Shown here: in pieces, positions 35,956 to 62,599 of the stretch | Layout: every line of letters begins with the position of its first letter | How positions within the stretch are numbered: the stretch's first letter is position 1 | NCBI RefSeq assembly: GCF_004210375.1 | Contig: NC_134834.1 | Coordinates: forward strand, 38,158,264-38,222,263 | DNA from: Tachypleus tridentatus | Lineage: Eukaryota > Arthropoda > Merostomata > Xiphosura > Limulidae | Reading direction: 5' to 3' | DNA length: 64,000 bases | The notes under the pieces: model-generated | What the model was told of the DNA's origin: nothing | The model's input: the letters and a program-made list of their open reading frames with translations, nothing else | Databases searched by the model: none | Program-made: the position numbers and the translations under genes

Positions 35956-38371
35956 TGCGCTAAAAACAACAGCAGAAAACTAAAAAGCGACTACAAAATT
36001 TTGAACTCGAGATTTCGTTCCTAATTCTCTCGAGGAGCTTGTGTCTTCTGGATCCTTTCTTTTTTGTACACATGATAATGTTAAAAGAGTGTAGTTATTA
36101 ACGGATCCAACTTATAGAATTAACACGGAAGCCTTTTAATTCTTATATTTTTTAAAAAGCTTATGCAAATAATTACTTGTGTATTGATCCGTATTTATCT
36201 GGTTTCATTTCTGTACAAAATATAATATTTTGCATTACTTTGAATAAACAACTCAAACTATTAATACCTTTATGCTGTTTTTTTAGTTTTATTATTAATT
36301 ACGTAACAAGTTTGTTTAATATGTTAAGAGTTTTATATGTAGAAATTTTAATACATTGTTACACTTAGTGTTTAGCTACTTAACGTTTTGCTTTCTTTGA
36401 GTGTTTGTTACATTTTCTTGAATGTTTACACTGTGAACAAAATGTATGCTCTACAATTGTAAATAAGAACTTACCTTAACAAAAATAAAAGATGTTTGTA
36501 ACATCAGATTTAAAGAATAAATGTATTTGAATATTTTTATTAAGTGTTCTAAACACAGGTACCGATTAGAGTAGATTTGGTGCGTTTGATATTAAACTTT
36601 TTATCACTTTGACTTGTAAATCCTTATTAATAAGAGGCCTAAGCCAAAATGTTATATTTCTGATAATATCTTAATATCTTGGAATAAACATATTTATATA
36701 TTCTGTTTGTTAGAAACTTGTTATTATTTTTCAATCAATCAACACAAGTATTTAAGCACAAAGATATTAATAAACTACTATATATTATTGTTTGAAATTT
36801 ATTTTACGTTAAGCATATGGGACTTGCTCTTTTTTAAAACAAAACTCAGTGAATTGAGTATGTTACACTAAAGCGATTTTGGAGCTTTACCACGCCTGAT
36901 TATTGCTTTGTCTGACGACTGTGCATCTTGACAATTTATTTGCAAAGCAATTTCCAATGCAAAAGACTGCTTTCATTCCTGCAAGCATTCATTAATCCAT
37001 CTAGTTTACGAGAACAACTTTCTCCAAGCACCAATTTCAACAGCCTGATCGAACAAAAATTCAGACTACTTGACCATGGTTGTGAAACGTCTTACTGTAA
37101 TTTTCTTTCTTGATGGTTCCGTTTTTTTAAGGTAATTCATATTCTTTTGTTTTCCAGTGCTATTAAGGACCAAAGAAACCTCTTCTCTCCGTCCCAAATA
37201 CATCTTTCTGATGTGAGTTTATGATGGTTTTGCATCTAAAAGATTGATACAAACACTTTCTAAATGCGAGAAATTGTCAAAAAGTAATCCTGATAAACGT
37301 CTTTCCACTGTGGATTTATATGGGCTATTATTGTCACATGACTTCTTATTTGCTTATGCGAAAACGTAAATAAAATGTACCTAACCCTGTAAAACATACT
37401 ACGTTCTCTTCTTTTTTGGTAAACGAAATGTAAAAAGACCCTACAATATCGATACAAGTGTTAATATTTTATATGCTATGTTTAGAGTCAAGATGAATTA
37501 GGTCACCTTCTAGGACTGGCACCAAGGGACTAGCCCATTATTAATTAGACACAAAAGAAACCGTAAAGAGGTTGAAGTTGGAACATAACGGAATAATGTT
37601 AACTTTTTTGAAAACTAGAAAAGTGTACATGAGGTGAAAAGTAATAAAAACAAATGGAACTTCTGTATTTGTTTGAAGAGTTTATGAAAATAGTGTATGC
37701 AACTATTAAAGTTAACGAATTTTTTTAAACCGTTCCAGAACGGAAAATTAGGTTCAACTTAGCTGACAGGATGACAGTGTTATTAAAAGTTTTATATAAT
37801 TAGCATTTTTCACACATAAACTGACAAATTTTAACAATGCAAGCTACGTTGAGTGCCAACTTTATTTATTTATTTTTATATTATTCACTTACTGCAGTAA
37901 CTTTTCTGTCTGTTTTTTTAGAAATTATCTTTATGTGAAAGAGTTCTTTGTGTTAGAGTCAAGCGAGTGGCGCCATTGCCTGAAAGAGTGGTAAAATATG
38001 TTGTTGTTGTTTTTTTGTCGTTCTGCACATGACACATACTGGACTAACTGTGACAGATGATGGGCTAAATTTGTAAATCCTGTTTCGAGTGTGTGGCAGG
38101 AGAAAAACAGATAAAATTTAAAAGGCAAGCACAGCCATAAAATTATTTTTCCTTTCTCTAAACAGTCCTTGTAGTACACATAAAAGACAAAATTAATTAA
38201 AAAGGAATTTGGTTAAAATAAAAAACAACGTTAGTGTGATTCCAAGCTGTCATTTAAATGAAAAACTTTATTGTCCAACTCTAGTTTTTGGAAAATATTT
38301 CGGGTAACGATGGGTTTCAAATATGTCACACTGTTAATGCATAAACATTTTTTGTAATAATTCGAATTTCT

Positions 38372-38599
38372 TCTTGACGACAAGAAACTCACTTGAAATA
38401 AAAATGTATCTCAGAAGAACTGGTTCTAGTACAGGCATTCTTATGAATTATACAAAACAAGCATCAGTAAACGTGCTTATTTTGTCTTAACTTATTATTT
38501 AAATCTTCTGATAGAAATTCCAATTGTATCTCAGAACGGTTGAAATGGGTGTTAACACTTTTACTAATAAAACAGAGAACGTTTCGACTTTCGTTTTAC
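38372..38599 (-). mobile_element. Short Penelope-type insertion with perfect 13-bp target duplication
   Basis: The insert is bounded by AATTCGAATTTCT at 38359-38371 and 38600-38612. Read on the minus strand it holds GTCGAAACGTTCTCTG near its start and CAAGTGAGTTTCTTGTCGTC at its end. This is a second variant of the terminal module seen at 47.9, 52.0, 55.1, 60.8 and 63.1 kb. Inside it, TGTATCTCAGAA is repeated (38405-38416 and 38525-38536) around 108 bp, most of which is an inverted copy of the DNA just right of the insertion. Confidence 0.75.
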
Positions 38600-38694
38600 A
38601 ATTCGAATTTCTATCAGAAGATTTAAAATAATAAGTTAAGACAAAATAAGCACGTTTACTGATATTTGTTTTGTATAATAATTCATTAGAATGC
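38435..38694. repeat. Long inverted repeat, arms about 92 and 96 bp
   Basis: The left arm 38435-38526 and right arm 38599-38694 are nearly perfect reverse complements (few mismatches, a small indel), separated by about 72 bp. The right arm is host flank including the target duplication. The left arm is inside the Penelope-type insertion. The arms would form a very stable hairpin. Confidence 0.88.
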
Positions 38695-38757
38695 ATATAT
38701 TGTAACTTTTTAATTATAATCCTGTATCATCACATTGTTATCATATGCCACCCTCAC

Positions 38758-38850
38758 GCCCTGGTGTCATAGTGGTACGTATACGGACTTACATACTAGA
38801 AACCGGGTTTCGATACTCGTGGTGAGTTTGTGCTTAACTACAAACAAACA
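38758..38850 (+). mobile_element. SINE family B copy, shortened
   Basis: Forward: 'cgccctggtgtcatagtggt', 'aaccgggtttcgatactcg', then directly 'tttgtgcttaactacaaac'. The 'agagcacagatagccc' part is deleted. Confidence 0.78.
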
Positions 38851-39525
38851 TATACCAAACCTTATACACTGTACGTGGATCTAACTGTGCACGTGAACTG
38901 AAAAAGATAGCATTATAAAATATTGTATGTAATACTATGCTCTCTTATTCTGAAAGAAATATTTCACATGAAGAAAGACTTTATTTGGAATAGGTATTTG
39001 GTATACACCTAGTATGGGCACTGTTCATCAAACGATGCACTCTTTTCTTTTTATTTAAATAAAGATTGTTTAACACTAACAAACACCGTGGTCAGTCTTT
39101 TTTTTTTCCAAACTCGGTCAGAGTTAGAGAATTAAAAATATAATTTCATGATAAATTTCTTGGTTGTTCCTCCTGCCATGTTCGGTTACTACCTTCAAGG
39201 TGAATCAGTAACCTAAAAATACCCCGGTTGTTTTTACAATTGCAAGTTTACTTACAGAACTTTATAAATTGTGAGTTTTCGATTATGCAGTGTATAAAGA
39301 GAGTATACTAGTGACTTAATATTTAAATTGATAAATTACTTAAACATACTAATAGATTTACATTTTCATTAATAACTAAAGGGAGTGGTATTAGAGTTTG
39401 AATAATAAAAGTTTGTGATTATAAACTTTAGGTCCAAACAACTATTCAGCTGTTTAGAGGTTTTGTTTTTATGTTTTTCTTCCTGTATACTACTTTCACA
39501 GAGATTGTTAAAAACATAAGGTAGC

Positions 39526-39645
39526 GTTGTTTGTAATTAAACACAAAACTACAAAATGGGCTATTTATGCTCTGCCCACCACGAGTATCGAAAGCTGATT
39601 TCTAGCGTTGTAACTCCGCAGACAGATTGCTGTGCCACTGGGGGC
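39526..39645 (-). mobile_element. SINE family B copy
   Basis: Reverse: 'gttgtttgtaattaaacaca', 'gggctatttatgctctgccc', 'accacgagtatcgaaagctg' and head 'attgctgtgccactgggggc'. Well preserved. Confidence 0.85.
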
Positions 39646-39671
39646 AAAGGCAACATAAGCTATTATTTTAC

Positions 39672-39726
39672 AGTATAATCAACATTACATATATATATCT
39701 ATAATCAACATTACATATATATATCT
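39672..39726. repeat. Two-copy tandem repeat of about 27 bp
   Basis: The unit 'ataatcaacattacatat' followed by (at)n and 'ct' occurs twice in direct succession, the first near 39673 and the second near 39700. It is probably a replication-slippage product of the AT-rich unit. Confidence 0.7.
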
Positions 39727-41550
39727 ATAGCTGCTTAGTAAACACGATTTGGCAAGTTAAGGTCTACCTACATAATCTACGTAAAATCTATGACAGTATT
39801 TAGGAGCAAACTCTCAGATTGTTCAGTTCTTTAATTCAGATACTATGATTCTGAAATACGAAAATGAAATTCGAAAACCTGTAAAAGAGGGAACGTAATA
39901 AAACACACAATAAGGCGAAAGGGAAAGTATTTCAGCAAGAGGGCAAAAAACACACAAGGATAATGGCCCATAAACAGGAAGGAAGAGCACAAGTGAAACA
40001 TAGCCTGATAAACTAAATAATTATACGAGAGAGTTCTGTTGGAAGTAAGGTGTAGTTAAGAACATAAGAATGACAATTTAATTTTTAAAAATAGAACGAA
40101 ATTTAACTATAAAATTTGATCATATGACCCAAACACTCGTTTTGTAAAAATACTAAGGAGAAATATTTAAGCTCTGGAGCAACGCTGCAAAGTAGAAAAG
40201 ATGAAAGAGTGTCAATATGGAACACTATAGTGTCACGCTTTAAAATGGATTATGAAGAATATTGAGTAGAAGTTTATGAAGAAATCCCTTAGAACAAGAG
40301 TTAGAGCTGAATCGGCTTACGAGTTAATTTATGGAGCATCGTACGCCTAAATATTTCCTGAAAAGTAAAATGTGGGTTTAATTTGTTAAATTTTTCCTAG
40401 ATTATGCTTGTAGTTACAGCTTTGAAGACACGAGTGATTTCTTGTGTTCTGTAGCAAATTCTGTCACCTAAGTTTTGAGTTTTCGGATCTGAACATAATA
40501 ATTAGTTATTTTGACTGAATATCTTACAACCAAACGGTAGACTTCTGGGACTGGAATACTTGAATAAGTAGTAAGTGTCTGTACAGCAAAATAGTTTCTA
40601 TAGTCTAAACAAAAAGAGGATGGGAAGTGAGCGTGTGATGGTAAGGGTTGGTTAACATTTCAATTCATAAAGTTATTTAATACTTAAACGTGTATCTATA
40701 ATATTTTTTATTAAAATAGTTCACTATCTTGAATTATTAATTCTAAGTTCTAAAGTTCAAGAAATATATTTTTAGTGACAATGAAAATTTGATGTAGAGA
40801 GTATTTAATAACCTACTTTTAGTAAATATTTTTCGTTCGCTAAGATATGTATATGTATATCTTTAGAAACCCTGCAAAGTTTCACTAAGTTTACAAATAT
40901 TAAAATAAATCCAGTCAAAACTAAGATTTGTAATCCCAAAAAGTTTCATGGCATTTACAAATTAATTTTTCTACTAACATATTTTTAAAATGCCAAAATA
41001 AGTTTCATTTAAAAAAAAGGTTAAAAACTCAAACATCGATGAAGTTGGATTAAAAATACACAAAAATAAAAGTATAATGATTGATTGTTATTACCACAAA
41101 CAACTTTAATAATTTTATAAACTTCATCTTCCCAAATCCGAGAAAAAATATACATAGAGTAACTTTCTTGAAAAGTTATATACATCAATTACCAGTAATT
41201 TATATCTTTATGAAAATGAAGCACAAACATTGTAACACAAACTCACAGGATTACTGGACTGTTTACTGTTTTTAATAAGAGTTCATGATTGAGAATATTA
41301 ATTACTGTGTACATAAATAGGCATCACATTTTATTATGTATATCTTTAAAATATTTTTGTTTGTTTTTTGTAATTGTATTGTAAATAAACATTTCTGGGT
41401 GTTTTGAATTCATTTTATGAGGCTGCTCTTGTGCAGAGTTATCATTAATTAAAATTTTAATTGATTATTTGGAATTAAATCCGAGCTACACACTGACACT
41501 TTATGGTCAAAACCAGCTCAAAACCAACATTTTGGTGACAAGATAATTTA

Positions 41551-41825
41551 GGGCCAGGCATGACCACGTGGTTACAGTGGTCCACTCATCATCTGAGGGT
41601 CGCGGGCTTGAATCCCCGTCACACCAAACCTGATGTTCTCTTCAGCCGTGGGACGTTAGAATGTTATGATCAATCCCACTATTCGTTGGTCAAAGAGTAT
41701 CCCAAGATTTGGCAGTGGGTGGTGATGACTAGCTGTCTTTCCTCTAGTCGTACATTGTAAAATTAGGGATAGATAGCGCAGATAGCCCTCGTGTAGCTTA
41801 GTGAGAAAATTCAAAAACAAACAGA
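41551..41825 (+). mobile_element. SINE family A, near full length
   Basis: Forward copy: head 'gggccaggcatgaccacgtg', B box 'cgggcttgaatccccg', core 'cacaccaaacctgatgttct', body 'ccactattcgttggtcaaag' and tail 'ttcaaaaacaaacaga'. Confidence 0.9.
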
Positions 41826-41844
41826 CATGACAGTTAAGAATCTG

Positions 41845-41962
41845 GGGTCTCACTCTAGGATAACGGCAAGTCTACGGATTTGCAACGCTAAAATCAAAGG
41901 TTCGATTCTCTTTGGTGAATATAGTAGATAGCGCGATGTAGCTTTGTTATAAGAAAGACACA
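41845..41962 (+). mobile_element. SINE family C copy
   Basis: Forward: 'ctctaggataacggcaagtc', 'tacggatttgcaacgctaaa', 'aaaggttcgattctctttgg', 'gatgtagctttgttataaga' and an (ac)n end. It is the sense-strand partner of the copy at 14613. Confidence 0.78.
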
Positions 41963-42689
41963 CACACAAGAATCCAGGATTTACTATTAGAGCTCCGATG
42001 ATCATCCTAACAGAACATAATTAGAGAAGCGTGATGCAATGATGGCATTGCTCACACCCAGGCTGCATGTTTAAATTTAAGCTTGGTATCCAAACTATGA
42101 GATGAGGATTTTCACGCTGTTCCTTTAAAAGACATACCACATCTGTATGTGATCGAACAATTGAAATAACCACTAAGGATCCCTTGTCAGTGGCAGCGCC
42201 AGGATATTTTCGTTGGGGAGGTGAGGTAAACTGTGGAGGGACTTCCCAAAATGCCATCAATATGAATTGATACCATCAGTATAGATGGTAAATTATAATA
42301 ATGTAAATACCAAGGTACATTTCAGAAAGGTGTGCTATCTTGAACTGCGTTTTCAATGCAGTTTTAATTGGAAACTCATACTCTGATTAATAATTCATTA
42401 TTACAAATTAGAAATAATCTGTTTATGAAAATATGCGTATATGTAAAAGAGGAAGCTCACCTAAATTCCACCCAAGATAGTACATAATAATAAAGAAATT
42501 CGAGATTAGCTTAGATTGAACACTTAATATACCATTAAGAGTAAAGCTACAAATCGAAAGAAATATAACATAAAGACATAGTTTTCATAGCAGAAACGAA
42601 TTATCCCATGTGAAGTTAATACACTCTGAGGAAAAGTAAAGTCACTATCAGGCTAACTATCTTTCATCATGTTGTGTTTATAGTCAATA

Positions 42690-44855
42690 TTACTTCAAAA
42701 CAATACGCCTGTTCTGGTGATTGGCAGCAAATGTGTCTATAACAGTATCAATATCGAGTTGTTTTGCCCTCCTGGAGTTTACTGATATGACAGCAAGGTT
42801 GCTGGTGCGGTTGTTACCACTGCTGTTGCGCAAGTATGTCTTGAGAAGCTTCAGACATGATAAACTTTTCTCACAGGCAGCTGAAATGACAGACAGGGTC
42901 ACAGCGATGCATACAAGTTTGTGGAGATCCATGAAGGCATCCTTCTATGGCTTCAGCACGGTTGTGGCTCCAATGGTGTGGATACTTCCTGCCCCTTGTC
43001 TTTCTTCCTGACAGTTAGCCGGTTCAACTGGTGGATTTCCACTGCGAGGTCATCCTCTGCCACACCATAGTTTGCTGCCATTCCTAAGAGTGCTTGCTTG
43101 TCCAAAATGTGGAGTGTTTGGGGTTCAATGCAGTTGCACCCATCAGAACACTGCAGGCATCAGAGGAGAATCTTCTATTCAGCTCGTTAGCATCCTGTCT
43201 ATGATGGCATAGAAGGTGTGTCTCCTGGCATCTGGTGTTTGTTCATCTCTTTCGCCAGTACTAGATGTGATTATGAATTCGTCTAGGTGTTTGGGGACAG
43301 ATCGCTGTCCACCTTGACGCACCGTCTCAGTGCATATTCCCACTTTCTTACATATATCCTCAGCAGACTCTTCCAAGTCTCTCCATGCTGCTTCAGTTCT
43401 CATTTCTGAGAGATCAAAGATGACAAATTATACTAGATCCTCTGCAGAGGCCAGCTGCAGGTCAGTGGACTGGAGGTGGTCTGATAGCTGTTTTGCCATC
43501 AGCAGTAGTTTTTCTATGGCCACCCGACTGGTTACGAACTGCTGATCTAGGAGGATGCACAGACCTTTTGATTCAGTGGCTCTGTGGACATTGTCCCCCT
43601 CCACAAGATGCTTTAGGATTGTCACAATGGCAGGGATGGTTCTTTTAACAGCCAGACAAGCAGCATGTTGGCAGGCCCATCTTATGTCTGACAATCGCTT
43701 CAACACTATGTGCTGATTCACAGGTTCAAGCTCCTTCTGTATCTTCAGAAATTCTTCATGCACAACCGATGTAGAGAAGAATTTGTACAGCTTCTGAATT
43801 GTTACAAAGAACTCTGCTGCAGCCTGGACGTTGTGCACACAATCAACTAGCACAAGGCTGAACCTGTGTGCATAGCAGTGGACATACACAGTCTGAGACA
43901 CCTCTCTCCTGAACCTCTTCTGTACGCCACTGATGTGCCCTGATATGACTGCAGCTCCGTCATAGCACTGGCCAATGCAGGCATTATGGTCAATACCACA
44001 TTTAGCCAGAGTCTCCATGATTTTCTTGAGCAATGAATCTGCATCCAGACCCTCAGTAGCTGTGAAGTCCAGGAACTCCTCGTGAACGCTTTGTTGGTGG
44101 AGGTACCTTACCACAACGGACAGCTGTTCTTGTTTGCTCACATCCTTTGTTTCATCCACCATTAGAGCAAAATGCTCAGCTTCCATGACCTCTTTGCTGA
44201 TATCCTTCCTGATCATTCCAGCTATGATGTCAAGCAGTTCGTTTTGGATATCATTGTGCGTGAACTTGGCATTGCCAGGACCACTCAGCTACCTCTTCAC
44301 GATTTCATCATACCTGGAAATCATATCAAGAAGTTCCAGGAAATTGCCCCTGTTATCAGACTGACTACCTTCCCTGTGACCTTTCTGGGCTTCATTCTGT
44401 CATGCTGTGTAAAGCAGTGCATCTATTACGGCTCTTATGTAATGTCGGTTTTCCTCCACAGTTTTATCATGGCTTGCATCGAGAGCATGTTGGATCCTTG
44501 CACCCTTTGTTTTCTGCAATTTAAACTCTGCCCAAGCTTGCATGGCAAACTTGTGTCCTGCAGAGTTATCATGGGACTTCAGTGTTGTGGTCGCCTTCTT
44601 CCAGTTCCGAAAGCTTTCATGGATGAAGGACTTCTCAATTTTACTGAAGTGTGTGTGACTGAAAAGACGACATACGAAGCAGAATGAAGCATCTTGGGTC
44701 ACAGAGTACTTCAACCACGAGTGCTGATCATGCCAATTCTTGTTGAATAACCTTGACTGGCTTCTGCATTCTGTGGCCAGGTATCTCTTCAAGTCTGGAC
44801 AAGTAGAACCACTATCTGAAAGCTGTCTCAGGTCCTTGGGTCCTGTGGAAGTTTC
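42690..44855 (-). pseudogene. hAT transposase, ZMYM1/DUF4371-like, inactivated
   Basis: One minus-strand reading frame carries the family layout. A TTF-type zinc-finger region lies at about 44792-44500 (CRSQSRLFNKNWHDQHSWLK, ASFCFVCRLF, HDNSAGHKFAMQAW). The DUF4371/catalytic core lies at 44216-43428 (FALMVDETKDVSKQEQLSVV, CIGQCYDGAAVISG, VYVHCYAHRFSLVLVD, DIRWACQHA). The hAT dimerisation C-terminus is at 42932-42690 (ACEKSLSCLKLLKTYLRNS, NRTSNLAVISV). Breaks: in-frame TGA at about 44402, a TAG at about 44290 and a TAA at about 43430. Single-base frameshifts lie near 43190 and 43100. Upstream, a TGA at 44858 closes the frame, so a further 5' exon may exist. The antisense ORF at 44172-44687 is a shadow. 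Confidence 0.87.
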
Positions 44856-45699
44856 TCACCCTGGGTGTGAGTGGTGCCCTCTTGCGGCTGGGGTCCGCAC
44901 TAGTCATGTCCGTATTCTCACCATCACGATCACCACTATTCTCCTCATCTGTATCACATGTTTGTAGGACCATCTATTCGCTGCCTCTTCTTGGGCAGCA
45001 GGTAGTGTTGCATAATCAACCCTAGGTGTAGTATGACCGGTTTATATTTTGGTGGGAGATGTCTGACTTTTGTCTTGTTTGTTGGTGTCCTTGTTTGAAA
45101 ACGAGTCGCTGATGTTGATTTCCTTTTATTAATCCAAACTGAGTGTGTGTTCCAGTGTGAGGCCGAGTACCAGAGAGAGCGAGAGCCGAGTAAACAAACT
45201 TAACTCCTTTTAATACAGAGCATGCAAACGTCAAAGTGACCCCCGAGCCGGTTGACTGCTAATACCACTTCTTACTTCCAAGTTGTGTTAGTTTATATGA
45301 AACGAATGGGAATTTCTCTCTTTATATCGGCATTAGGGCTTACAAAATATATTCATTTTAAACATCGAAATCTAAGGAAAAAGATATAACATACATACTG
45401 TTGGGTCATTTCATGAATAAGGAACAAATAACAACTAAACATGGTTCAACATTACGAACAACTGCTCTGCGGCATTGAAATCACCAAATTATATTAATAG
45501 CACATGAAAATCCAGAACATATGCGTAAAATACTGTTAGAGAAAGTGTTTATCTTTAACCATATAACACAAGTACTTAATTAGAGGGTAGTGATAATGGA
45601 AAATTATCAGGAATAATTATTATTAATTACTATTATTATGCCTCTCGATTCCATGAAGGAACATAGGGCCGCAATCGCTTGCGGATTCATTAACAGGCT

Positions 45700-46220
45700 G
45701 GTTTTTTAAGTGAGTAGATTGTTAGCCTACCGCACAAACCCCAACCAGGAGGAGAAACCTTTTGCCCTCCCTAATTTCGCAGTGTAAGACTAGAGGGAAG
45801 GCAGCTAGTCATCACCACCCACCGCCAACTCTTGGGCTACTCTTGTACCAACGAATAGTGGGATTGACCGTCACATTATAACGGCTGAAAGGGCGAGCAT
45901 GTTTAGCGCGACTGGGATGCGAACCCGCGACCCTCGGATTACGAGTCGCACGCCTCGGTTTTTTAAGTGAGTAGATTGTTAGCCTACCGCACAAACCCCA
46001 ACCAGGAGGAGAAACCTTTTGCCGTCCCTAATTTTGCAGTGTAAGACTAGAGGGAAGGCAGCTAGTCATCACCACCCACCGCCAACTCTTGGGCTACTCT
46101 TTTACCAACGAATAGTGGGATTGACCGTCACATTATAACGCCCTCACGGCTGAAAGGGCGAGCATGTTTAGCGCGACTGGGATGCGAACCCGCGACCCTC
46201 GGATTACGAGTCGCACGCCT
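45700..46220 (-). repeat. Tandem duplication of SINE plus flank, unit about 257-265 bp
   Basis: The non-SINE lead 'ttttttaagtgagtagattg' through 'aggagaaaccttttgcc' occurs at 45702 and again at 45959, each time followed by the same reverse family A SINE. The second unit is some 8 bp longer at 'cgccctcac'. The first ends within the tRNA-like head (after 'gagtcgcacgcct'), exactly where the second begins. This is a segmental duplication and not two independent insertions. Confidence 0.9.
45765..45956 (-). mobile_element. SINE family A, copy 1 of the tandem pair
   Basis: Reverse copy starting at 'ccctaatttcgcagtgtaag', lacking the usual tail, and ending inside the tRNA-like head because of the duplication boundary. 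An 8-bp deletion lies in the core. Confidence 0.88.
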
Positions 46221-46243
46221 AACGCGCTCGGCCATGCCAGGCA
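46023..46243 (-). mobile_element. SINE family A, copy 2 of the tandem pair
   Basis: Reverse copy from 'gtccctaattttgcagtgta' to the complete tRNA-like head 'cgctcggccatgccaggc'. It differs from copy 1 at a few positions. Confidence 0.9.
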
Positions 46244-46334
46244 CTACAGGGCTAATTAAAGAACACAAACACATCTTTGATAAGGCATGTTGTAAAACTG
46301 TGGGCAGCTAATGGGAGTGAACGGGGGGGGGGTG

Positions 46335-46389
46335 GCGTACGGCTAGCATCTGGATCTCGATCGGGCTGAGCCGATCGTTAGCCGTACGC
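46335..46389. repeat. GC-rich nested palindrome inside the hAT element
   Basis: The outer arms GCGTACGGCTA (46335-46345) and TAGCCGTACGC (46379-46389) are perfect reverse complements. The inner arms CGATCGG (46358-46364) and CCGATCG (46371-46377) nest within. It is CpG-rich in an AT-rich setting, preceded by a G run, and part of a CpG-rich patch extending to about 46500. Confidence 0.8.
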
Positions 46390-47358: not shown

Positions 47359-47925
47359 ATTCATACACTATATGGAAAGTAAATAAAGATTAAGTATGTG
47401 TTTGGACATTACAACCTTATGATAGAGCTTTTTTCAATGGAAATTATGCTGCAGGGTTATTATCAAGATGCATGGTCACCAGATAGAACATTATTGGATA
47501 TAAAAACATGGTGAGGTTCCAAAATCATTTGTTATAACTTAATCAACCCACTTTAGTATGTTTGATAAAGTAATAGTTTCATCACATTTCCATAAACCTC
47601 GGTAAACACATTTTTGACTCATTTTTGGTCTAACAATATATCATGATGGAGTTGTATGTGTTGTAAAAATAAAACACTTGAGGTTAAATGCATTCTCAAG
47701 ACGGCTGGTATAGTTATTAGCACTTGAGAATACAGATTTAAATAAAATAGATTTGAAAACTTTGGCTGACTTATGCATAATTATGTTTGTGAGATAGCAT
47801 TGCTAAAAAATGAGATTTCATACACTGTTTTTTTAAGTCATCCAGTTTTGATTCACGCCCATGGCTTTCATGTTCACTGTAACATTTAAGTACAAAATTC
47901 TATAATAAAACTATAGCCAAATACA
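47359..47925. other. Spacer between hAT element and Penelope-type insertion
   Basis: AT-rich single-copy-looking DNA directly right of the hAT target duplication. No feature seen. Confidence 0.35.
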
Positions 47926-48059
47926 TATATTTGAAAACGGCTGGTATGGATAGAGAAAGCACTAGTAGAGGAGCGAACAACGTTTCGACCTTCTCTACTC
48001 ATACCAGCCGTTTTTAAATATATAATTTTTTCTGCAAGTGGATTTTCTCGTCGTCAAGG
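47926..48059 (+). mobile_element. Short Penelope-type insertion with fold-back, 13-bp target duplication
   Basis: The flanks ATAGCCAAATACA (47913-47925) and ATAGTCAAATACA (48060-48072) differ at one base. The insert folds: 'gaaaacggctggtatg' at the left pairs with 'cataccagccgttttt' at about 48000-48015. The loop carries 'gcgaacaacgtttcgacctt', which is the antisense of the hammerhead 3' half (GAAACGTTGTTCGC). The right end is the shared terminal module 'tgcaagtggattttctcg'. Confidence 0.82.
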
Positions 48060-48072
48060 ATAGTCAAATACA

Positions 48073-49970: not shown

Positions 49971-50129
49971 TCACAACTAAAAAAGTAAAATTTTACTATG
50001 GGATAAAGTGTTGCAAGAGGATTCAAGAGTATGAGTCTGTAGATATTTGTATGTTCACTGAAGCAAAATGGAACAGTCTGATACATTTCCTGGATCCATA
50101 TGATGTTGAATATGACCTAGATCTAGCAG
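49971..50129 (+). other. Unassigned open frame ending at a good splice donor
   Basis: The frame open over 49958-50170 starts in a SINE tail remnant. The following residues (KCCKRIQEYESVDICMFTEA, then DPYDVEYDLDLAG) do not look like the AT-driven chance ORFs around it. CAG|GTAAAA at 50129/50130 could be a donor. I recognise no family. It could be a 5' exon of TAF1B or of an unknown gene, a transposon fragment, or chance. If joined to the acceptor at 51831 the protein frame would not be the TAF1B frame, so only a non-coding or uORF role fits TAF1B. Confidence 0.3.
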
Positions 50130-51856
50130 GTAAAACAACTACAATGCACTGTAGAATGCTGCTAGTTTAGCAAGAAATGCACTTTTTTTTAAACTGGTGT
50201 ATGTTAGCATGAGAATAGGCCCAGGTGCATGAATGTTGGTATCAGTGCACATTATTAATCAGTTGTTTTAGTGCATTAGTTGTAAATGGCTATTGTTATC
50301 TTTTTTTTTTTAGTGGAGCATTCAGGTCACAGCTTTTTATTTTCACTTCAGCAAAATATCAAATTATACTATGGCACAACTTATTTTTGCCACTAACACA
50401 ATCAGTTAAGTGACAGTTAATGAGATATGCATATAAACAGTTTTAAAGCAGTTTTATTGCACTTGCATGTAACTAATAATTTTGAAACTCTCTTACAAAA
50501 AAGACTAAAATTAATTGCATATTTTATCAGCTGTTAAAATGAAGTTCAAAATATAGTAAGCTATGAGTAGCAAAATTTTAGAGAGTATTGGAAGAAAACT
50601 GAACAGAAAAATACAAATGAAGTAAAAAAAATGTTTAAACATTTATTGAAATTTATTCACACAATATAGTTTAAAGTGTTATATGTATGTGTGAAACTTT
50701 GTACCTACTCCATTTTTTTTCTTAATTTAAACTTTTTTTTCCAGTTTAGAATATAGAACAAGTAGTATTTCTCAGCTTATTTTGTTTCTTAAAATGATAG
50801 TTTTTATTCCTAATTTTTTCATTTATGCCCTCACTAAACTGTCATTCAAAAGAAATTATTTTTTTAAGATGTCTGGAAATAGTATTTTATTTCTGAAAGT
50901 TTGCTTTAAATTCCTAATTTTACATTTAATCTCTTGCAGTGCAACTTGAGGCTTTACTTTGATAATCTGTAAGACCTTCAGCCATGATTTGGCCAGATTT
51001 TAGTTATGCAGTTTTTCAAAATTACGAGTTTCCAGGACTTTTTCTCAGTTGTGATTGGTTAGCTATAGATGATTAGTATAATAAAGTCCTCTGATATCCT
51101 TGTACTGTCATGATAGTATGCAAGGACACAAGTTTAAGGTTTGAAAAAGCCAGCTAAGTTCAAGTTAAGATTTTTTTTTTTTTGTAATTGAAAAGTTGAC
51201 TTAGTGAGTGAACTGTGAACAGCAGTAATAGAAGCCAGCACTTTACACAAATGTAAGAGGGTAATTGATGATTTTGTAAGGAAAAAGAAATACTGAGATT
51301 AAATTTATTTTTTGCATTGATTGAATTGGAAGAACAGTTTTGAAGGACTAAAGTTTTTAATAATACTTTTTTGTCTGTGGATTATTATACCCAATTTTAA
51401 AATCTGAGTGAGATTGCACTACAGTACATCAATTAACAATCTTGTGACAAGTCAATCCCTTTGTATTCAGGTTCAGTTTGAACTATTTGAATAGTTTCCA
51501 TTCAACTTTAACAGTATAAATACTGAATAGCTAAAGAACATTTAATAAATTTAAACCTAATGATGTATCAGGTATAATATTGGTGGTTTATGTGCTGAAA
51601 AAACTTAATTGTATTGTATTTTAAAAGATAAAACCTTAATCTTACTGAAAAAATGATACAGTTTACAGCTAATCACATTAGTCAATTTTTTCAGAAAGTT
51701 AAAAATAGAAAATCTGTTTTGCATCAAAGTAGAATAGGTTTTCTACTTTAGAAGAATCAAAAGTCTATATCTTTTATTCATTTCCCAAAGCATTACCAAG
51801 TGACATTTTACTGTTTTTTTCTTTATTTCAGGACTTTTGACTATAACAGGTGAAAT

Positions 51857-54800
51857 ATGCCTGTATGTGAAATTTGTGGAGCAGAAGAATTTGATCTTCA
51901 TGATGGACTTTATTTTTGTATGACTTGTAACACACAAACTACAGTATGTTTGAGTTTATTTCTGTGTTACAAATTAATTCTCTTTCTAATCATTTATTGT
52001 AGTTTTAGACAAAGTAAATTTAAGGAATTAAAAATGTTTATATATGTAAAAACGGCTCATTCGGTCATCATCAGGTTCACCGAAGAAGGTCAAAACGTTC
52101 GCTCCTCTACATAAGATATTTTCTCAACCCAAACGAGCCGTTTTTACATATGTATTTCTCTACAAGTGGGTTTTCTTGACATCACTAATTAAAAATGTTA
52201 CTGCACATTTCAGACTGTCATTAGTCACCACCAACATTTGGGTCATAGCATGTTACTTGCAACTTGAAAATAAGCAATTCAATAGTACAGTAATTATTTT
52301 TCAGATCTGTCTGTTTCACCACAGCCTTACTGCAAGTAATTGTTATCGATCAATAGTTTTTTCTTTCACAATTGATTAATAGTTTACTCATAAATTCATT
52401 CAAGACTATCCATCTTGCATCTGTTGAACAATTTTATCATGTCAATATCCTCTTTGGATATTTTCATAGTCAGGGAAAATGGATGAAGGATAAGAACATG
52501 GTATTATTACTATATAAATATGAATCTTTTGAAGAAAATTTTATAAGTGATTTCTAATTTAGTAGACTTGTGTAAAGATATTTATTTATAATTATGTCTT
52601 CATAGTCTATTCAGTTGTATGTTAAGCAGATACTTTGTTTAAATTATAAAATTATTTTTGGTAGCAAATTTTAGAGGAAGAGGAGGATCCACATAGTCAA
52701 TTGCTGGGTGTGGCCATTAAAGAAAAGAGATGTAAGAGAACAGTTGAAGAAGATCGGGGTGACCAGTGGATATCACTTGAAGCATATAATATTATTATCT
52801 GTAAACAAGTACATGCTCTAATAAATTTAGGTGCTTCACCAAAATTAAAGGTAAAAATGAGAAATTTAATTGTAAAGCTTAATTTTCAATTTTTGTTTAC
52901 TTTTTACGACTTCAGTTTCAAATTAATATACAAATCACATGACCAGATGTTTGAATAAATAAAATCATTGAATATATGTGTGTTTGTGTGTGTGTATGTT
53001 AGGTTTTTTTGTTTATTATGACATAAGGCAATGAAAGTATATTTAAATGGGAAAATATATATATATAACATGGGGTAACTAACTTGCATAATTTAATAAA
53101 CATGTCGGATTTCAATATTTGTAATGGTGAAAAACTTACCAACTTACTTTTATTGGTAAGCATGTAAGCAATGTTTCAGGCAACAACTTTTTATCATTGT
53201 TTTCTTGTTTACCAACAAAATTATTTTAATTTGGTGAGTTTATCATTACTATATTTTCCATTTAGAATTTTTTAATTTCTTCACCTTTGAAATTTTTTTA
53301 TTATTAGATTTATATATTTGTTATTTTGACTATTGAGGCTGTAAAAATACACTTTTGAATAAAAGCTTATACACTTGACAGTATGTTTGACGTTCATGTG
53401 TTATAGTTTATACAATATATTTTAAGATCTTTAAATTATTAATATGTATATATTATTTTGTATAAAGTCAGATAATAGAAATTATACTGAGTGCGGCATG
53501 GCCAGGTAGTTAAGGCACTCGACTCGTAATTTGGGGGTTGCAGGCTCAAATCCCTGTCACACCAAACATGCTCACCCTTTTAGCCATGGGTGTGTTATAG
53601 TGTGATGGTTAATCCCACTATTTGTTGGTAAAAGAGTAGACCAACAGTTTGCAGTGAGTGGTGATGACTAGCTGCCTTTCCTCTAGTCTTACACTGCTAA
53701 AATAGAGACAGATAGCTCTCATGTAGCTTTGTGCAAAATCCCAAACAAACCAAACCTTCCAGGTTTATTTTATCTGTAGATTTACAAAGCTAGATGGGGT
53801 AGAAGTTTCATACATATTTTTTTTAACAAGTGCTTTTATAAAAAATAAAATTAAAACCATCATTATTTGTGTACATATATAAAGAACTAAAGTCCATATA
53901 ATTTATATTTCAGTAAATTATTGTAAGATTGGACTATTTGTAAGATGATATAGAGCAAGGTTTGCTCTGTCACAGTCTACCACTTGTTCAAACAGGGTTA
54001 AAATAATTTAGACTACTGAAAGGGGATGTTTTCCTAAATTTAATAAAACAAAAATCTCTATCTTAAGCTTATTTAAGGACACTTTTAACTGAAGAAAAGG
54101 AAAAATGTCAGGGATTTTAGTTGCAGTTTGTACACATGTAGATCACAAAGAGTAAGTTTACTGCTTGATCATAAAGATCACATTTGTTGGTTATTTACAG
54201 AAAAAATGTAAACTTAATTGTAAATCTTATGTTAGAAATGTTTTATCTTGTAATAGTGAGTGATAGAAATTTAAATTGCTCATGGAAGTGACAGATGTCA
54301 CATTATTGTTCACATGGATTAAGTTCATATAAGTAGCGAAGTTAAAATTTGAAAGACATTCATCAGTATTTTTTTCTGTTTATTCATGAGTAATAGTTTG
54401 TATTTACTGTTTACACTTATTTTTTGTATTTTATACCATAAGTAGAGACAAGTAGTGGTGAATTATCTTAATTTGATAACATATTGTTGATTCTTGTTTC
54501 TCTTCAATGAAGAATATAAAATAGCTAAATAAAAAGATGTGAATAAAAAGTACAGATTTTAAAGTGGAGAGTATTGTGTAAAAATGAAATAAATGTGAAA
54601 TAAATACTTTTTGAAATTTTTATTCTTTGTGTATCATTTTCTTACTGATGAATTGTGTAGTTATGTGGTTCAAGAGCTGTAGCAGAATAGCTCTGTATTG
54701 CTTCCAATTGAGTTATTAATTCTGCATTTCTAAACTACTTAATGTGTATAAAATTCACAACACTTGATAAGATTCTTAAATACTAAACATCTGTTTTATT

Positions 54801-57800
54801 ATCATTGCATCTTTTATATGCATAATGAGATCAGCAGTAATGTTGATAGATTTATACCTATCTGTAAGGTAGTATGCTTTATATGTTAATTTGTTTTACA
54901 GGATGTTGTTTTTAACCTATGGGCAAGATACATCCAGAAATGTGAGCTTGCTTTTAATAAAGAAGAATTGAATGAGGATACACCAAAACTTTCAGTATAC
55001 CCTAACCGTAGGTAATTATTAGTTATAAGATACTAGGTTTTATTTAATTACTCTTAGAAGAATATTTAAAATACTTCAAGGAAAGTTGAAGTCATGTCTT
55101 CCTTGCTTTGACATGTAACTTGATTAATATATATGCAAAAACAGCTCGTTTGGGTTGAGAAAATATATCTACAAGTGGGTTTTCTCGACATCACTGATGT
55201 AACTTGATTCATCATCTTATGTCTGAGTAAATGTAGTTGGTTTTAAATACTTTTTATAGAAATAACAGTGCATTGTTCTATTTATTAATCCTTTTAAGCA
55301 GTTCTTGTTAATGTTTAAAAGGCATTTTAGATTATTTTGATTTATATATAACATTATTCTCAAATTATTTTCATTATGTAGTTTAGAAGAACTGGTAAAT
55401 TATAGCTATGATACAATGAATTTCCTCATATTTTGGAGAATTTTGTTTCTAACTCTAAAATAAGACATTGTTCATTTTTGGTGATTGTCTAGAAAATTCT
55501 CTTTGAGTACATAAGAATTTCAAAATATAATTCTGTTATTATTAGAGACTTGTTTAAAAAACAAGTTAACACCAGAGAAAGTAGATTTTTTGTTAACTCT
55601 TGATAATGGAGGTAAAAGTGTGCAGTTTCTGACTTTTTATAGTTACATTCAGCATTCAAAACTACTTTATTATCAATGTATGTGGGTAAAATTATCCCAA
55701 AAATATAATTAATAAATCAAATTTTAATATTATTGAAGATTTAATTTCTTAATTTGAAAAGGAAATATTGAAATAATTTCTCTGTAACATGACGTTTGTT
55801 TGCTCTTATTTGCCCATTTATGTTTTTCATTACCTCTCTATTATTTAACATATATTACACCTTATAATTCAGATATTACTAAGGCATAGTGTAATTTCTG
55901 TAGCTTTAAATCATCTTTGTAAATTTATGAAAGTATAAACCATAAACTCAGACCCACTTTTCACACACACATCTCATTCTGTCTCTCACAAATTGACAGT
56001 AGTTCTCTCTCTTTGATGTTTGCTATTAAATAACTTATAACCAATGGAAAGACAAAATTGGAATTTATAAAATGACATCTAATGCTACCTTGTTCTCGGT
56101 AGTGATGTTTATTTATTTTGCTTAGTGATTGGAAGCTATTGCCAAGCTCAGATCAAGCAGCAAAGGAAATAAAAATTACTTTACATGTTGAATAGTTAAC
56201 ATCCTGAAGAAAAAAAGTACACTAACAGATCATTAATAAAAAATCTTGAAACTTAATTTAGAAAAATTTATACTTTCTATATGAAAGCCCTGTAATATTT
56301 ATTAGTAATTTTGTGAAGATGTGTACATTTTAAAATGTTACAGTATAATTGTTTTATGGTTACTTTAGGAAATATGGGTTGGGTTGAATCCACCCACTTT
56401 TAGTAAAAGGTTTTATGTTATTACTCTTTAAATTATGTCTTACTAATAATCCTGTAATACAACCTGTAAATCACATGGTAAATTAGAGAACTGAATGATA
56501 TATGAAATCTACTCACAAGCATACCTCAGGTTGAAAGTTTAATTTTGATTTTACTTTTATAACAGTAACTGAATAATATATTTAAAAACAAGAACAACAA
56601 ATTTAATACTTATATTTAGCTTCTCTTTTGGATATTTGCCCACCAGTGAAACTTAAGCTTAGTTTCTTACATTATTAATATATCAGATAGTTTTTATTTA
56701 TTTCTAATACACAGTCAAGAACAAAATAAAAATGTGAAAAGCAGACAATGCTCAATAACTATTATAATTTAACTAGCTTTTTAACCAAGACACAATTGCC
56801 TTGAGGTAAATTACAATAAAATACTTTTATTTATAGAAAGATTGTCACACTTCACATGCAAAATCTCTATAACATCCAAGTAATTATCAAACATTATATT
56901 TGCTATTGCATCTTTGTATAGATTTGGTCAATTTGACTAACCTCATAACCACCATAAAAAATTAGGAAATTGCTAAAAATTAAGAGTTTTCCTTCTAGAA
57001 TGACTGAAGATTATAATACAAAACTAGAAATGTTTAGTCTAAATATCTTCAATTTAATAACATTATATATTTGTTATTTTTATTTTATTGACTTTTTTTA
57101 GCTGTGTCTGACTAATATTACAGAAGCTGCGATGACGTGGCACATGTATACTCATGCCACTGTATCTAATAGTATGAAACTGGGCTTTTACAAAGTAACT
57201 TGTCTTTGCTTTGCTTTTTTCTAGTAGGCCATTGTTTTGTAAAATAATCACATTTCAGTTATAATACATACATGCATATATGTATACATATTATTATTAT
57301 TTACAAACAAGTTCTTAAATTTCAGTTATTTTTCTTAAAATATAGAACAGGAAATAAGTATTGAAAACAATGAACTTTGTATGCATTTGCCACTTTCCAT
57401 AATCTGCTAAACCTTGTCAAATTTTACACTTAAGAGGGTATAAAACAATTTTTTTGAGGTTTTATATACATGCATTTTAAAATAACTATATTGTATTTGG
57501 GTCCAAAAAGCATGGTATTTAAGCTCCATTAAATCTTCCATTTTGCTTCAATTCTACTGTGAAGAGAATAGTATTCCTGCATAAATACAACACAGAGGCT
57601 GAAGAATTCATGTAAAAGATATTCTGAGCTTTTGATTGGTCATAGATACGAGAGAACAAAGTAGGTGTATATAAGCAAGTGGAAAAGGTGGGCAGGGCAG
57701 TTTTGGTTGATTCAATAAATACATTAATATCTCAGAAAGTAGAAGGGTTCTTATTTCATATTGTAGGTTTCCGATATTGGTAATTTGAGTTTTTAACTTG

Positions 57801-60800
57801 TAAGAAACTGTAGACAATTTGGACATCACAAACATTTAAATTGAACTGAAGCTACATTCAGTATATCATGAGAAAAACAAAAATCAATATTTAGGATTTT
57901 CTTTTAATATTTACCTTAAAGTTAACAAATTAAATACTGTATAATATTAAAATTTGAAATATAATCCACAATTTGACATGAAATTTAATGACATACATTC
58001 ATAAAATACTAGTTCAATAAAATTTTGAAAGTACAAATGTGATGGCATGCCCTTTGACCCCTGATCATAAATAGACCTGTTGAGATAGTGTTAAATAGAA
58101 ATAAACCTTAAATTGATCAGGATGAATAATTGAAACTGTCTGTTATAATCTGCAGTCATTCCAGAAAGAAAAAAAGGATAATTAAAATTTAGTATGTGTT
58201 GAATATAAAGTATGTCAAACCAACTGAGTCTGTATGTTGTTAGGGTAGAGAAATTAATAGATAAAATATAAAATTTTACTGAAAAAAAAAGGCTTTTGGA
58301 AACTGCAAGATAAGTAGTTTTGTAAATTTCTTAACCTGAAAATCACTTTGCACTTGAAGTAGTAAGAGTCTGAGTCACTGTCTGACTCCGTTATGTTTAC
58401 ATGTAAAATCTGAATTTTCACGTACTTGTATCGTGTTTCTCCGAAAATAAGACAGGGCTTATATTAATTTTCACTTCAAAATATGACACTAGGGCTTATT
58501 TTTGGGGGATGTCTCATTTTGATATATTAAAAAAATGAAGTTACAAAGTAAAACTATTAAACTAACCATTTAAAATAAACTATTATTAAACTATTAAACT
58601 AACTGATTAATACTTAAACAAACTAATTAACTAACTATTAAACTAATTAATAAATTATTTTTTTTTATTTCTTTCCTCTTCCTGCCACTCTTAACTAGGG
58701 CTTATTTTAAGGGTAGGGCTTATATTAAAACTATCCCCAAAAATCACACTAGGTCTTATTTTATGGGTAGGTCTTATTATCAGAGAAACACGGTAATATT
58801 TATCAAAATTTGCCATATTTTATGTTGTAGTTTGTATGTATTCATGGTTATCTGCTAGTTGCAAAGTCGATCAAATTGGCCAAACCTCTATAGATAATCT
58901 GCTCACACACTGTTTTTGTAGATAATGCATATATAAAAAAGACTTGGTCAGAATTCAGTGATAAAACTGTTATGTCACATAAGGATAAGAATATTTGAAA
59001 GTCTTAAGGTCTTAAATCAGAGATTAGAATTTCAAAAACCAAAATTTTAGTTTTTAAGTTCATTCTAGAAAATCAATATTTATGCATTCATCTTTTTATG
59101 GAAATGATACTGTCAATTTTAGCAAAGGTTTTAGGAGATGTGATTTTCTTACAATTTGATCTGCAGTATGAATTTTATTTTCAGTTTATTGTTTGTAACT
59201 ATACGATTAATATTTATATTAAAAAATAAACTAGCATAAATGCATACACATATAAAGAGATTGCTCTTGCTTGTATGTATAATCTGTATAAATAACCAGA
59301 TTTGATCACTTTTTAGAGATGTACTAGTTCTTCAGGATAAGAAAAAAATTCCACAGACCTATCATTTGTCTAAACTGGTTCAACAAAAAAGAACTAACAC
59401 TAACAAACGAAAGAAGAGGAGGAAAAAAATGTTCAATAAAACAGAAAATTCTAAAAAGAAACGTAAGAAGGAAAATTCAGCAATTGAAGACAGCAACAGT
59501 ATAGATAGTGCATTAGGAGGTTCAACCTCAGAAAACACTGTTTGTGAACTTGAATCTAGGTCTTCAACAAAGAAAAGAAGTTTGCCATTGGACCTCTTCT
59601 CTGACCATGCCAAGTGTATGATAGTATGTTAAATATTTTAGTTGGACTAATTAACAGCTTATGTAGTGGCTTACAGTAATCAAGGAGAAACAAGTACAGT
59701 TTATCATTTCATTTTTTCTTATTTCAAATTTTGAATTATGCATTCCTTATGAAACTTAAACTGTTAATCATGATTGGATGGTATTATAAAACACACACAT
59801 AAAAACTATTTTAAACTGGCAAGTGATCCACACTTGTTTCATTTTGAAATGTATTTGATACCTTCATATCTAAGATTTAGAATTTCAGTTGTAGTTTCTC
59901 GTGTGAATCTGTGAAAATGGCACTTTCAGGTGACCTGGACTGAACAGTGCATCTGTTGAGATTTTGTGTGGTATGATAACTTTAGCTGCAATCAACATAT
60001 TTTGAAATTATAAATCTTGTAGGCCATCATAATGGTAGTATAAATAAAAGGAAGATTCATCATTACACCTGCTTAAACTTATTTACAGTAAGAGCATTGT
60101 TTAAATAGTTAATGTAATTGATATCTTGTAATAGCTTTCACATACGAATTGGATATATCTTGTTACTTTTACTCTTTAGAGACCTAAATTAATATAAACT
60201 ATTTGGGAGGTGTAAAGAACAACTGAAATGTCATTCACATAACTATCAATTACTACTCATGTGATTTCCCTGTGGTCAGTTTTATTAAAGAAGGATGGAA
60301 TTCTCTGGAAATTGTCTCAGTAAAAATTGTTTTAAAGATTTAGCATACAGGATCACACATAAAAGGTGTTATGAAGTTCATTAAAAAATCAAAACTTGAG
60401 CACTTTTGAATAGTTCACTGTTCTTCCTCAAGATAGTTAACTAATTGAAAATACTTGAATTTTGGTCGTCTTTTTTTAGTTCAGTGATATTTAGATAATC
60501 CAAAGATAGATGGGTTTCATATAGTTAAGAATGGTTGAAAATGTTTAATCCAGCAAAGGTTTTACAAAGTACAAATTGTCTATATATAGGGTCTAGTATC
60601 AGGCAACGTTGGTTGCATTCATAATGTTATTGAATGGGTTTTTCCCAGATAATTTATTTGAAACGATAATTCTTTTGTAATTACAGATTTTCTCTCTCTT
60701 TAAGTTATGTCAAACCAGTTTTTTGCCTATTGTTCTCGTGTGTAATTATCATAAAGAAGTGCAACAGTTTAAAGTGATTAATTTGTTATACTGTAGAAGG

Positions 60801-61306
60801 TAGTGAAAACTACCAGTCATAAATTATATATGCAAAAACGGCTCGTTTGGGTTGAGAAAACGAGAAAAACGAGCCGTTTTTGCATATATATTTCTCTACA
60901 AGTGGGTTTTCTCGACATCACAGTTTTAAATTAGTTACAGAAACTACAACCAGTCAGTTAAAGTATGCTTTATATTGGGCAATATCACAGATTCCAATAA
61001 ACTAAACATTTATGGTAACTCTAATTGTGTTATACATGCATCATTTGCATTTTAAAATAAAAATCATTTGTTATTATGTATTGATAAATGGTTTACATTT
61101 TTGGTTTTCATTTCATAATTTTTATAAAACTATAATTATGTGATGTTTCTGTAGAAGAAGCATGGAAGAATGGCACTGTGGAGTTCCAATAACTTAAGAA
61201 GAAGAAGTTCTAAAGTCGAGGTGATGACGTTAATTAAAACAGTGAGCTTTTGTTGGCTTGGCTTGCTGCTTCTCAAGGATCAGGTGCTTCTGTCTGATTT
61301 TCTGAG
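51857..61306 (+). CDS. TAF1B: TAF1B (RNA polymerase I SL1/TIF-IB subunit), 5' half, five coding exons
   Basis: Coding exons: 51857-51943, 52665-52850, 54902-55011, 59317-59623, 61155-61306 (about 280 residues; human protein about 590). Donors are GTATGT, GTAAAA, GTAATT, GTATGT and GTAATC; each acceptor ends in AG, and the phases (0, 0, 2, 0, 2) agree. Residues 4-24 form a zinc ribbon (CEIC, then CMTC), as in Rrn7/TAF1B. Exon 2 holds QWISLEAYNIIICKQVHALI and exon 3 NLWARYIQKCELAF, matching the family's segment after the ribbon. Exon 4 is lysine/arginine-rich (KRKKRRKK near 158-165, nuclear-signal-like). Exon 5 (TVSFCWLGLLLLKDQVLLSD) opens the TFIIB-like cyclin fold. The protein helps recruit Pol I to rDNA. 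The ATG follows an in-frame TGA; an acceptor at 51831 implies a 5' UTR exon upstream. I found no sixth exon before 64000. Confidence 0.88.
52039..52186 (+). mobile_element. Short Penelope-type insertion in TAF1B intron, perfect 13-bp duplication
   Basis: AATTAAAAATGTT is identical at 52026-52038 and 52187-52199. The terminal arms ATATGTAAAAACGGCTC (52042-52058) and GAGCCGTTTTTACATAT (52135-52151) are perfect inverted repeats. Between them the hammerhead halves are in opposite orientations: TCATCATCAGGTTCAC (antisense of GTGAACCTGATGATGA) at 52065-52080, then GAAGAAGGTC and AAAACGTT in sense. The right end has the shared 'ctacaagtgggttttctt' module. It lies in the first TAF1B intron of the coding region. 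Confidence 0.88.
52851..54901 (+). other. TAF1B intron, 2.1 kb
   Basis: Begins GTAAAA and ends TTTGTTTTACAG. Contents: a (tg)n stretch near 52977-52998, the SINE at 53491 and otherwise AT-rich DNA. Confidence 0.8.
53491..53755 (+). mobile_element. SINE family A, near full length, in TAF1B intron
   Basis: Forward copy: head 'gcggcatggccaggtagtta', B box 'caggctcaaatccctg', core 'cacaccaaacatgctcaccc', body and tail 'tttgtgcaaaatcccaaac'. It lies in the intron between the exons ending at 52850 and starting at 54902. Confidence 0.9.
55126..55196 (+). mobile_element. 71-bp Penelope-type mini-insertion, perfect 13-bp duplication
   Basis: ATGTAACTTGATT is identical at 55113-55125 and 55197-55209. 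The insert is only an arm ('atatatgcaaaaacagctcg', 'tttgggttgagaaaa') joined to the terminal module ('ctacaagtgggttttctcg', 'acatcac'). It is the smallest member of the series and marks the minimal mobile unit. Confidence 0.88.
55210..59316 (+). other. Large TAF1B intron, about 4.1 kb, no further exon seen
   Basis: AT-rich intron sequence between the exon ending at 55011 and the one at 59317. The only recognisable insertion besides the mini-element is the TIR element at 58429-58795. Reverse ORFs at 57063-57251 and 57608-57835 have no signature. Confidence 0.6.
58429..58795. mobile_element. 367-bp TIR element (MITE-like), TAYCGTGTTTCTC termini
   Basis: Left end TATCGTGTTTCTCCGAAAAT (58429 on) and right end, inverted, TACCGTGTTTCTCTGATAAT (58795 back). 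Inner subterminal repeats of 'gggcttatttt' and 'aggtcttatttta' type are also inverted. The centre is (actaacta)n-like low complexity. No transposase, so non-autonomous. The termini resemble Harbinger/ISL2EU-type ends from memory; superfamily not proven. The flanks give no clear duplication. Confidence 0.7.
60827..60920 (+). mobile_element. Short Penelope-type insertion with fold-back, 13-bp duplication
   Basis: CAGTCATAAATTA (60814-60826) and CAGTTTTAAATTA (60921-60933) flank the insert, 11 of 13 identical. 'tatatgcaaaaacggctcg' and 'cgagccgtttttgcatata' are perfect inverted arms around a short 'tttgggttgagaaaa' loop. The shared 'ctacaagtgggttttctcg' module follows. It lies between the TAF1B exons at 59317 and 61155. 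Confidence 0.83.
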
Positions 61307-62300: not shown

Positions 62301-62599
62301 CTCAGCACATGAAACAAAACAAAAACTCAACATACTAAGAAACCAAATAAACACAACCATAAAACTATGCTCACCAGGTAAAATTAACAATGAATTAGAC
62401 AAAACAATACTTCATCAACATCAATAAGTTTCCTTCACAAGCCATAGAAAACATGTGCACACACCTAGACAGAAAGCAAAATCAACCAACAAAAGTAAAT
62501 ATATCTCATGATTAAAAAAATCACAAAATCATATACTGCTGCATACCATATATTCCTGACATCAGCAGAAAAATAACCAATATTTGGTAAACACTAGTA

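Follow-up and report, generated by a model that had tools for sequence, protein, structure and literature searches.

In this work we describe five short inserts, named A to E, that lie within a 64,000-nucleotide stretch of the genome of Tachypleus tridentatus (NCBI RefSeq assembly GCF_004210375.1, contig NC_134834.1, positions 38,158,264 to 38,222,263 of the forward strand), hereafter called the window, and that share sequences with a Penelope-like element found at 63.2 kb of the same window. All of them are enclosed between direct repeats of 13 bp, and we consider it probable that they are Penelope-like insertions, strongly truncated on both sides, for which reverse transcription was primed from the two 3' ends left by a staggered cut of 13 nt. 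The way in which Penelope-like elements bring their integration to completion is still largely an open question, and inserts as short as these keep both outer ends and the cDNA junction in one readable stretch.

Thirteen-base-pair repeats around five inserts

The inserts (A, 38372-38599; B, 47926-48059; C, 52039-52186; D, 55126-55196; E, 60827-60920) range in length from the 71 bp of D to 228 bp. The 13-bp repeats on their two sides are perfect in A, C and D, and show one mismatch in B and two in E. The first-pass annotation of this DNA had reported the same five inserts with three perfect and two imperfect repeat pairs, and all these details were confirmed.

Random pairing of 13-mers from the window provided an estimate of chance at fixed positions: 48 pairs out of 1,000,000 showed one or two mismatches and 17 showed none, about 16 of these last being expected as a position paired with itself. 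With a laxer control, in which each boundary was left free by 4 bp, two or fewer mismatches were observed in 0.245% of 20,000 pairs. The presence of 13-bp repeats at five inserts out of five is far above chance in both controls. In addition, a listing of exact repeats lying 60-400 bp apart, compiled blind to the inserts, contained four 13-bp pairs, including those of A, C and D, when 0.65 would be expected by chance.

As regards the length of the repeat, when the boundaries were left free by 8 bp, 13 bp alone scored best in A, B and C. In D it ties with a length of 16 bp (one mismatch), but this tie drops out because the three extra bases are element sequence; in E the 13 bp with two mismatches tie with a perfect 7 bp, and here the tie remains. 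If lengths were uniformly distributed over 7-15 bp, the probability would be 0.0014 for four equal lengths and 0.00015 for five, figures to be taken as illustrations only, as the real length spread of the Penelope class may differ.

Pattern, BLAST and profile searches identified six copies of the 3' tail in the window, the one in A being weak, while the five clear copies all map to the plus strand (none of 100 shuffles reached five). The first-pass annotation had attributed the same terminal module to all the inserts. An exact 17-mer of this module occurs in the 63.2-kb element as well as in C, D and E, but B carries two changes, and A holds only a diverged antisense version, with 82% identity to B over 34 bp (BLAST E 0.0007-0.003, nhmmer E 0.16-0.27); a search with a terminal-repeat profile did not list the A tail, and returned another segment of A at E 1.8 only.

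The repeat accompanies five of the six tail copies in the window, with the 63.2-kb copy as the exception. For this copy, the best 13-mer in a duplication search over 61200-63050 had three mismatches, equalled or bettered in 172 of 200 random trials, and extending the search upstream to 55000 gave matches with two mismatches only. The match at 60394 (two mismatches, ten exact bases) would, if real, imply a 2.8-kb element containing insert E; chance alone would give a couple of matches like this one, which was left uncounted. Moreover, the terminal-repeat profile search found no antisense arm at the 63.2-kb copy.

Elsewhere in the window, at 7627-7674, a weak terminal-repeat match (profile E 0.63) includes AGTGGATTTTCT; it is possibly an old copy and was left out of the counts.

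Arm architecture and proposed priming

The arms could be read in B, C, D and E (n=4), and are described here on an element reference whose position 1 corresponds to window position 63060. In each of these inserts two inverted arms are present, and the tail is found at one end only. The antisense arm begins at a TATATA tract (reference 125-129) in four inserts out of four, and the sense arm ends at the tail edge (reference 159-161), about 34 bases downstream of the tract, again in four out of four, with three further bases in B and one in D. Under a uniform null spanning reference 34-131, a range picked afterwards, four antisense starts fall within 5 nt at a frequency of 0.00036. The head-to-head inverted build and the constant start of the antisense arm had both been overlooked in the first-pass annotation, as had the flank copy inside A described below.

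The inner junctions are varied, no two being alike among B to E: overlapping bases are found in B and C, and filler of 3 nt and 6 nt in D and E, respectively. Because the inner break points differ, the inserts would be aborted products of a longer RNA and not copies of a short unit. B, C and E are inverted repeats, and in D the two arms have no element position in common, the insert being made up of 39 antisense bases from further upstream in the element and 28 bases of the tail in sense orientation. The 71-bp copy had previously been read as a suggestion that the terminal module alone is mobile, a view that is not supported by an insert made of two separate element pieces.

In all four inserts, the antisense arm carries element sequence that is missing from the sense arm, namely about reference 58-93 in B, 36-48 in C, 91-129 in D and 92-103 in E. 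Since this sequence lies beyond the sense arm, the antisense arm needs a start of its own on the RNA, and the antisense arms most likely began independently on that template.

Insert A, which is diverged and lies on the minus strand, consists of two element segments separated by an inverted copy of its own right flank (Table 1). This 94-bp flank copy spans the whole duplication and ends 3 nt past its outer edge, so that A contains the 13-mer a third time, inverted and altered at one position. The second element segment has a hammerhead-core stretch in common with the antisense arm of B (BLAST E 0.44 over 15 bp, nhmmer E 0.29), and, when aligned locally, it ends no more than about 2 nt from the same element position. 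On one reading, a strand composed of flank, 13-mer and cDNA would have been captured during synthesis, leaving a direct record of target priming at that end; we treat this as a lead only, because a later inversion or a template switch yields identical letters.

In the mechanism that we propose, the element endonuclease would cut the two target strands 13 nt apart. As the constant ends suggest, one target 3' end would then start reverse transcription of the element RNA where the tail has its 3' edge, and its partner would prime at the TATATA tract, about 34 nt upstream. Both cDNAs would halt after about 30-110 nt, their inner ends would be linked in head-to-head orientation through a small number of shared or filler bases, and repair of the gaps would leave the 13-bp duplication. 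The 13-bp repeats, the constant outer ends, the independence of the arms and the variety of the inner junctions are seen directly in the sequence. The geometry and polarity of the cut, which end primed first, and a source RNA longer than the inserts are what we infer in this scheme. More tentatively, this may be a Penelope-like family with a fixed two-handed geometry, in which the cuts on the two strands lie exactly 13 nt from each other and a dedicated start site on the RNA (tail end or TATATA tract) serves each 3' end, a suggestion that could be right but to which we would not commit. If it is true, the optional tail marks which DNA end used which start site. Should the pattern prove genome-wide, it would yield the stagger length, the start site for each DNA end and the joining mode, all of which are testable with purified protein.

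Known systems and competing explanations

Tails, inverted repeats and duplications are already known in Penelope elements. The purified protein of PAc, a Penelope-like element of the anole Anolis carolinensis, cuts and extends both DNA strands, prefers AT-rich DNA and uses in vitro two adjacent internal start sites, the tail being the interval between them, and its start site is reported not to differ between the DNA strands (PMC11167929). The element studied here resembles PAc, which is of the Penelope/Poseidon type, in a putative remnant of a GIY-YIG-like endonuclease, in a putative hammerhead-like core upstream of the tail and in a stem-loop at the 63.2-kb tail; furthermore, the two outer end points of the inserts lie a tail apart, as do the start sites mapped for PAc (PMC11167929). 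Unlike what is described for PAc, each start point serves a different DNA end in four inserts out of four, and a 13-bp duplication is present, whereas the main text on PAc does not contain the words duplication, TSD (target-site duplication) or stagger (PMC11167929). Four mixed inserts out of four would have a probability of 1/16 if each end chose freely, and for this reason four inserts cannot decide on a strand-specific start.

For the Penelope elements of Adineta vaga, the accessible part of the published description reports inverted terminal repeats, one of them bearing a 31-bp tail, and flanking target duplications of 8, 9 or 10 bp, or none (PMC3846280). The inserts share with these elements the inverted terminal repeats with one tail, the TATATATA motif with TCACT downstream, the target duplications and the captured host DNA, but differ in the 13-bp length, set against 8, 9, 10 bp or absence in that source (PMC3846280). 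The annotation had called a constant 13 bp unusual for the class; in this small sample the inserts look like independent Penelope-type insertions with a uniform duplication length, and the published lengths consulted vary, which bears this out. Among the matches listed in a literature search, and in the parts of those sources that were available, there was no report of a fixed 13-bp duplication for Penelope-like elements. All considered, the kind of insertion is known, and the fixed 13 bp and the use of one start site per end are modest new details.

A further parallel is offered by twin priming in LINE-1, where each of the two ends made by a staggered cut is extended on the RNA, so that the insert lies head to head between copies of the duplicated target, and where the second priming site varies in position. 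The inserts described here are likewise head to head and flanked by a target duplication, but, unlike those of LINE-1, have their second priming site at one element position. The origin of LINE-1 5' inversions by twin priming is documented in the literature (PMC4245944).

Inverted arms could also arise if a single target-primed cDNA folded back and copied itself, and the inverted repeats of B, C and E fit such self-priming, which the report on Adineta vaga favours for Penelope palindromes, on an antisense template (PMC3846280). However, the arms found here contradict it: folding back on its own cDNA is excluded as the source of the antisense arm because this arm holds sequence missing from the sense arm, in four inserts out of four and with no overlap between the arms of D. 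Nor is a constant TATATA start expected of a fold-back, and we regard this explanation as quite improbable. Slightly more credit, albeit still as an unlikely explanation, can be given to a short non-autonomous family, a miniature or SINE-like (short interspersed element) Penelope derivative that its terminal module would mobilise as one piece. In its favour, none of the five inserts is longer than 228 bp, B to E have their outer ends in common, and in Adineta vaga terminal repeats can carry foreign DNA (PMC3846280). On the other hand, the inner break points vary, so that a common short master is lacking, and the sharing of the module is already explained by a 3' end fixed through an internal start of reverse transcription. 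In addition, the common internal structure of a MITE (miniature inverted-repeat transposable element) or SINE-like family was not found, as the junctions of B to E differ and a flank copy sits in the middle of A.

The filler and the short shared bases at the inner junctions are typical of end joining, and together with the captured flank copy in A they would suit pieces of element cDNA patched by chance into double-strand breaks, with staggers of no fixed length. We find this very improbable, since a defined machinery is indicated by the five equal repeat lengths (0.00015 if lengths were spread uniformly over 7-15 bp, an illustrative assumption) and by the constancy of the arm ends. Animal retrozymes, with a canonical type I hammerhead and tandem repeats of 150-450 bp, were also considered and rejected, given that Rfam recognised no hammerhead and none of nine tandem-repeat rows covered the inserts.

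Several observations weigh against priming from both ends of a 13-nt staggered cut. The sample consists of five inserts from a single window; alternative duplication lengths tie in D and E; and the duplicated 13-mers are only mildly AT-rich (51 of 65 bases, compared with 66% across the window). At the sixth tail copy (63.2 kb) no antisense arm was found, and no duplication exceeded the chance level. For C, the case depends on a 21-nt second piece of the antisense arm, reached via a jump. The likeness of A to the other inserts is weak, and A is rearranged, therefore requiring an extra template switch or a later inversion. Finally, the one-site-per-end pattern is not predicted by PAc, because its start sites are alike on both strands.

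The 63.2-kb element and neighbouring features

The copy at 63.2 kb appears to be 5'-truncated and broken; the features of this element and of the inserts are collected in Table 1.

Table 1. Positions in the window of the duplications, the insert arms and the features of the 63.2-kb element
Feature	Position	Strand	Remarks
A left 13-bp target duplication	38359-38371	.	identical to 38600-38612
A tail-end element segment	38372-38434	-	antisense on plus strand; 82% to B over 34 bp, statistically weak
A inverted copy of right flank, including 13-bp duplication	38435-38528	-	source 38597-38694, 92% identity
A second element segment (hammerhead-core remnant towards tailless end)	38525-38599	-	resembles B antisense arm, weak
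A right 13-bp target duplication	38600-38612	.	identical to 38359-38371
B left 13-bp target duplication	47913-47925	.	1 mismatch to right copy
B antisense arm	47926-47990	-	reference 125 down to ~58; alignment extendable to 46, into sense arm
B sense arm with tail at end	47991-48059	+	reference 94-159 plus 3 nt
B right 13-bp target duplication	48060-48072	.	
C left 13-bp target duplication	52026-52038	.	identical to right copy
C antisense arm, two pieces	52039-52080	-	reference 126-102, jump to 54-34 over 5 nt shared sequence
C sense arm with tail at end	52079-52186	+	reference 49-161
C right 13-bp target duplication	52187-52199	.	
D left 13-bp target duplication	55113-55125	.	identical to right copy
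D antisense arm	55126-55164	-	reference 129-91
D sense arm, tail only	55168-55196	+	reference 134-161 plus 1 nt
D right 13-bp target duplication	55197-55209	.	
E left 13-bp target duplication	60814-60826	.	2 mismatches
E antisense arm	60827-60860	-	reference 125-92
E sense arm with tail at end	60867-60920	+	reference 104-159
E right 13-bp target duplication	60921-60933	.	
C-terminal remnant of Penelope-like open reading frame (ORF) with GIY-YIG-like endonuclease domain	62591-62929	+	ORF, Pfam, TIGR01453
Hammerhead-like core of terminal repeat (stem I, CUGAUGA, stem II, GAAAC)	63093-63134	+	
Tail of sixth copy, stem-loop fold	63184-63220	+	no duplication found

The whole 112-aa ORF gave no match to Pfam, and GIY-YIG was seen with trimmed stretches only, at E 2.3e-4 for a 54-aa stretch (21.8 bits) and E 4.4e-4 for a 79-aa stretch (20.9 bits), the curated cut-off being 22.6; TIGR01453 was matched with the 79-aa stretch only (E 8.8e-4). 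A PHROGs search with the endonuclease remnant returned an unrelated weak match only, and among phage records the protein search yielded a single weak hit (E 0.9). No solved structure matched the remnant, and its single-sequence fold prediction (pLDDT, predicted local distance difference test, 41) was too poor to use. Scans of viral_contigs with tail and hammerhead patterns and of genome_contigs with two patterns led to no confirmed relative, and none was confirmed among the 18 stretches of viral_contigs that matched the peptide pattern of the endonuclease query.

Stems I and II of the hammerhead-like core fold (50 nt, z -2.1), but part of the core is itself drawn into pairing in the lowest-energy fold, and the 129-nt fold was equalled by 163 of 200 shuffles. 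Rfam did not recognise a hammerhead in the core, nor any family at gathering score across the window. The stem-loop of the 63.2-kb tail reached z -2.7 as a 29-mer and z -1.9 over 41 nt; it is weak in C (z -1.3), D (z -1.2) and E (z -0.4) and absent in B, and is therefore not established for all copies. The profile search found no second direct copy of the terminal repeat, of the kind that tandem elements (pseudo-LTRs) would show, beside this element, which looks truncated and lies 0.8 kb from the end of the window.

Other features were observed in the window. At 45700-46220 there are two head-to-tail copies of a unit of about 257-265 bp, whose GC-rich part resembles, by eye, a tRNA-derived SINE; ARAGORN detected no tRNA in it, and the tandem-repeat finder did not list the unit. 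Part of the same unit is matched, on the other strand, by a 21-bp repeat located at 3852 and 4149. A remnant of a DUF4371 domain, which we take to be hAT-like, maps to 43428-44288 on the minus strand (Pfam, E 3.7e-12), and the adjoining ORF at 44400-44855 had no Pfam match. Finally, exon-like ORFs at 25459-32485 on the plus strand appear, by eye, to encode a multi-pass membrane protein; they may resemble the insect protein tincar, and the three that were searched had no Pfam match.

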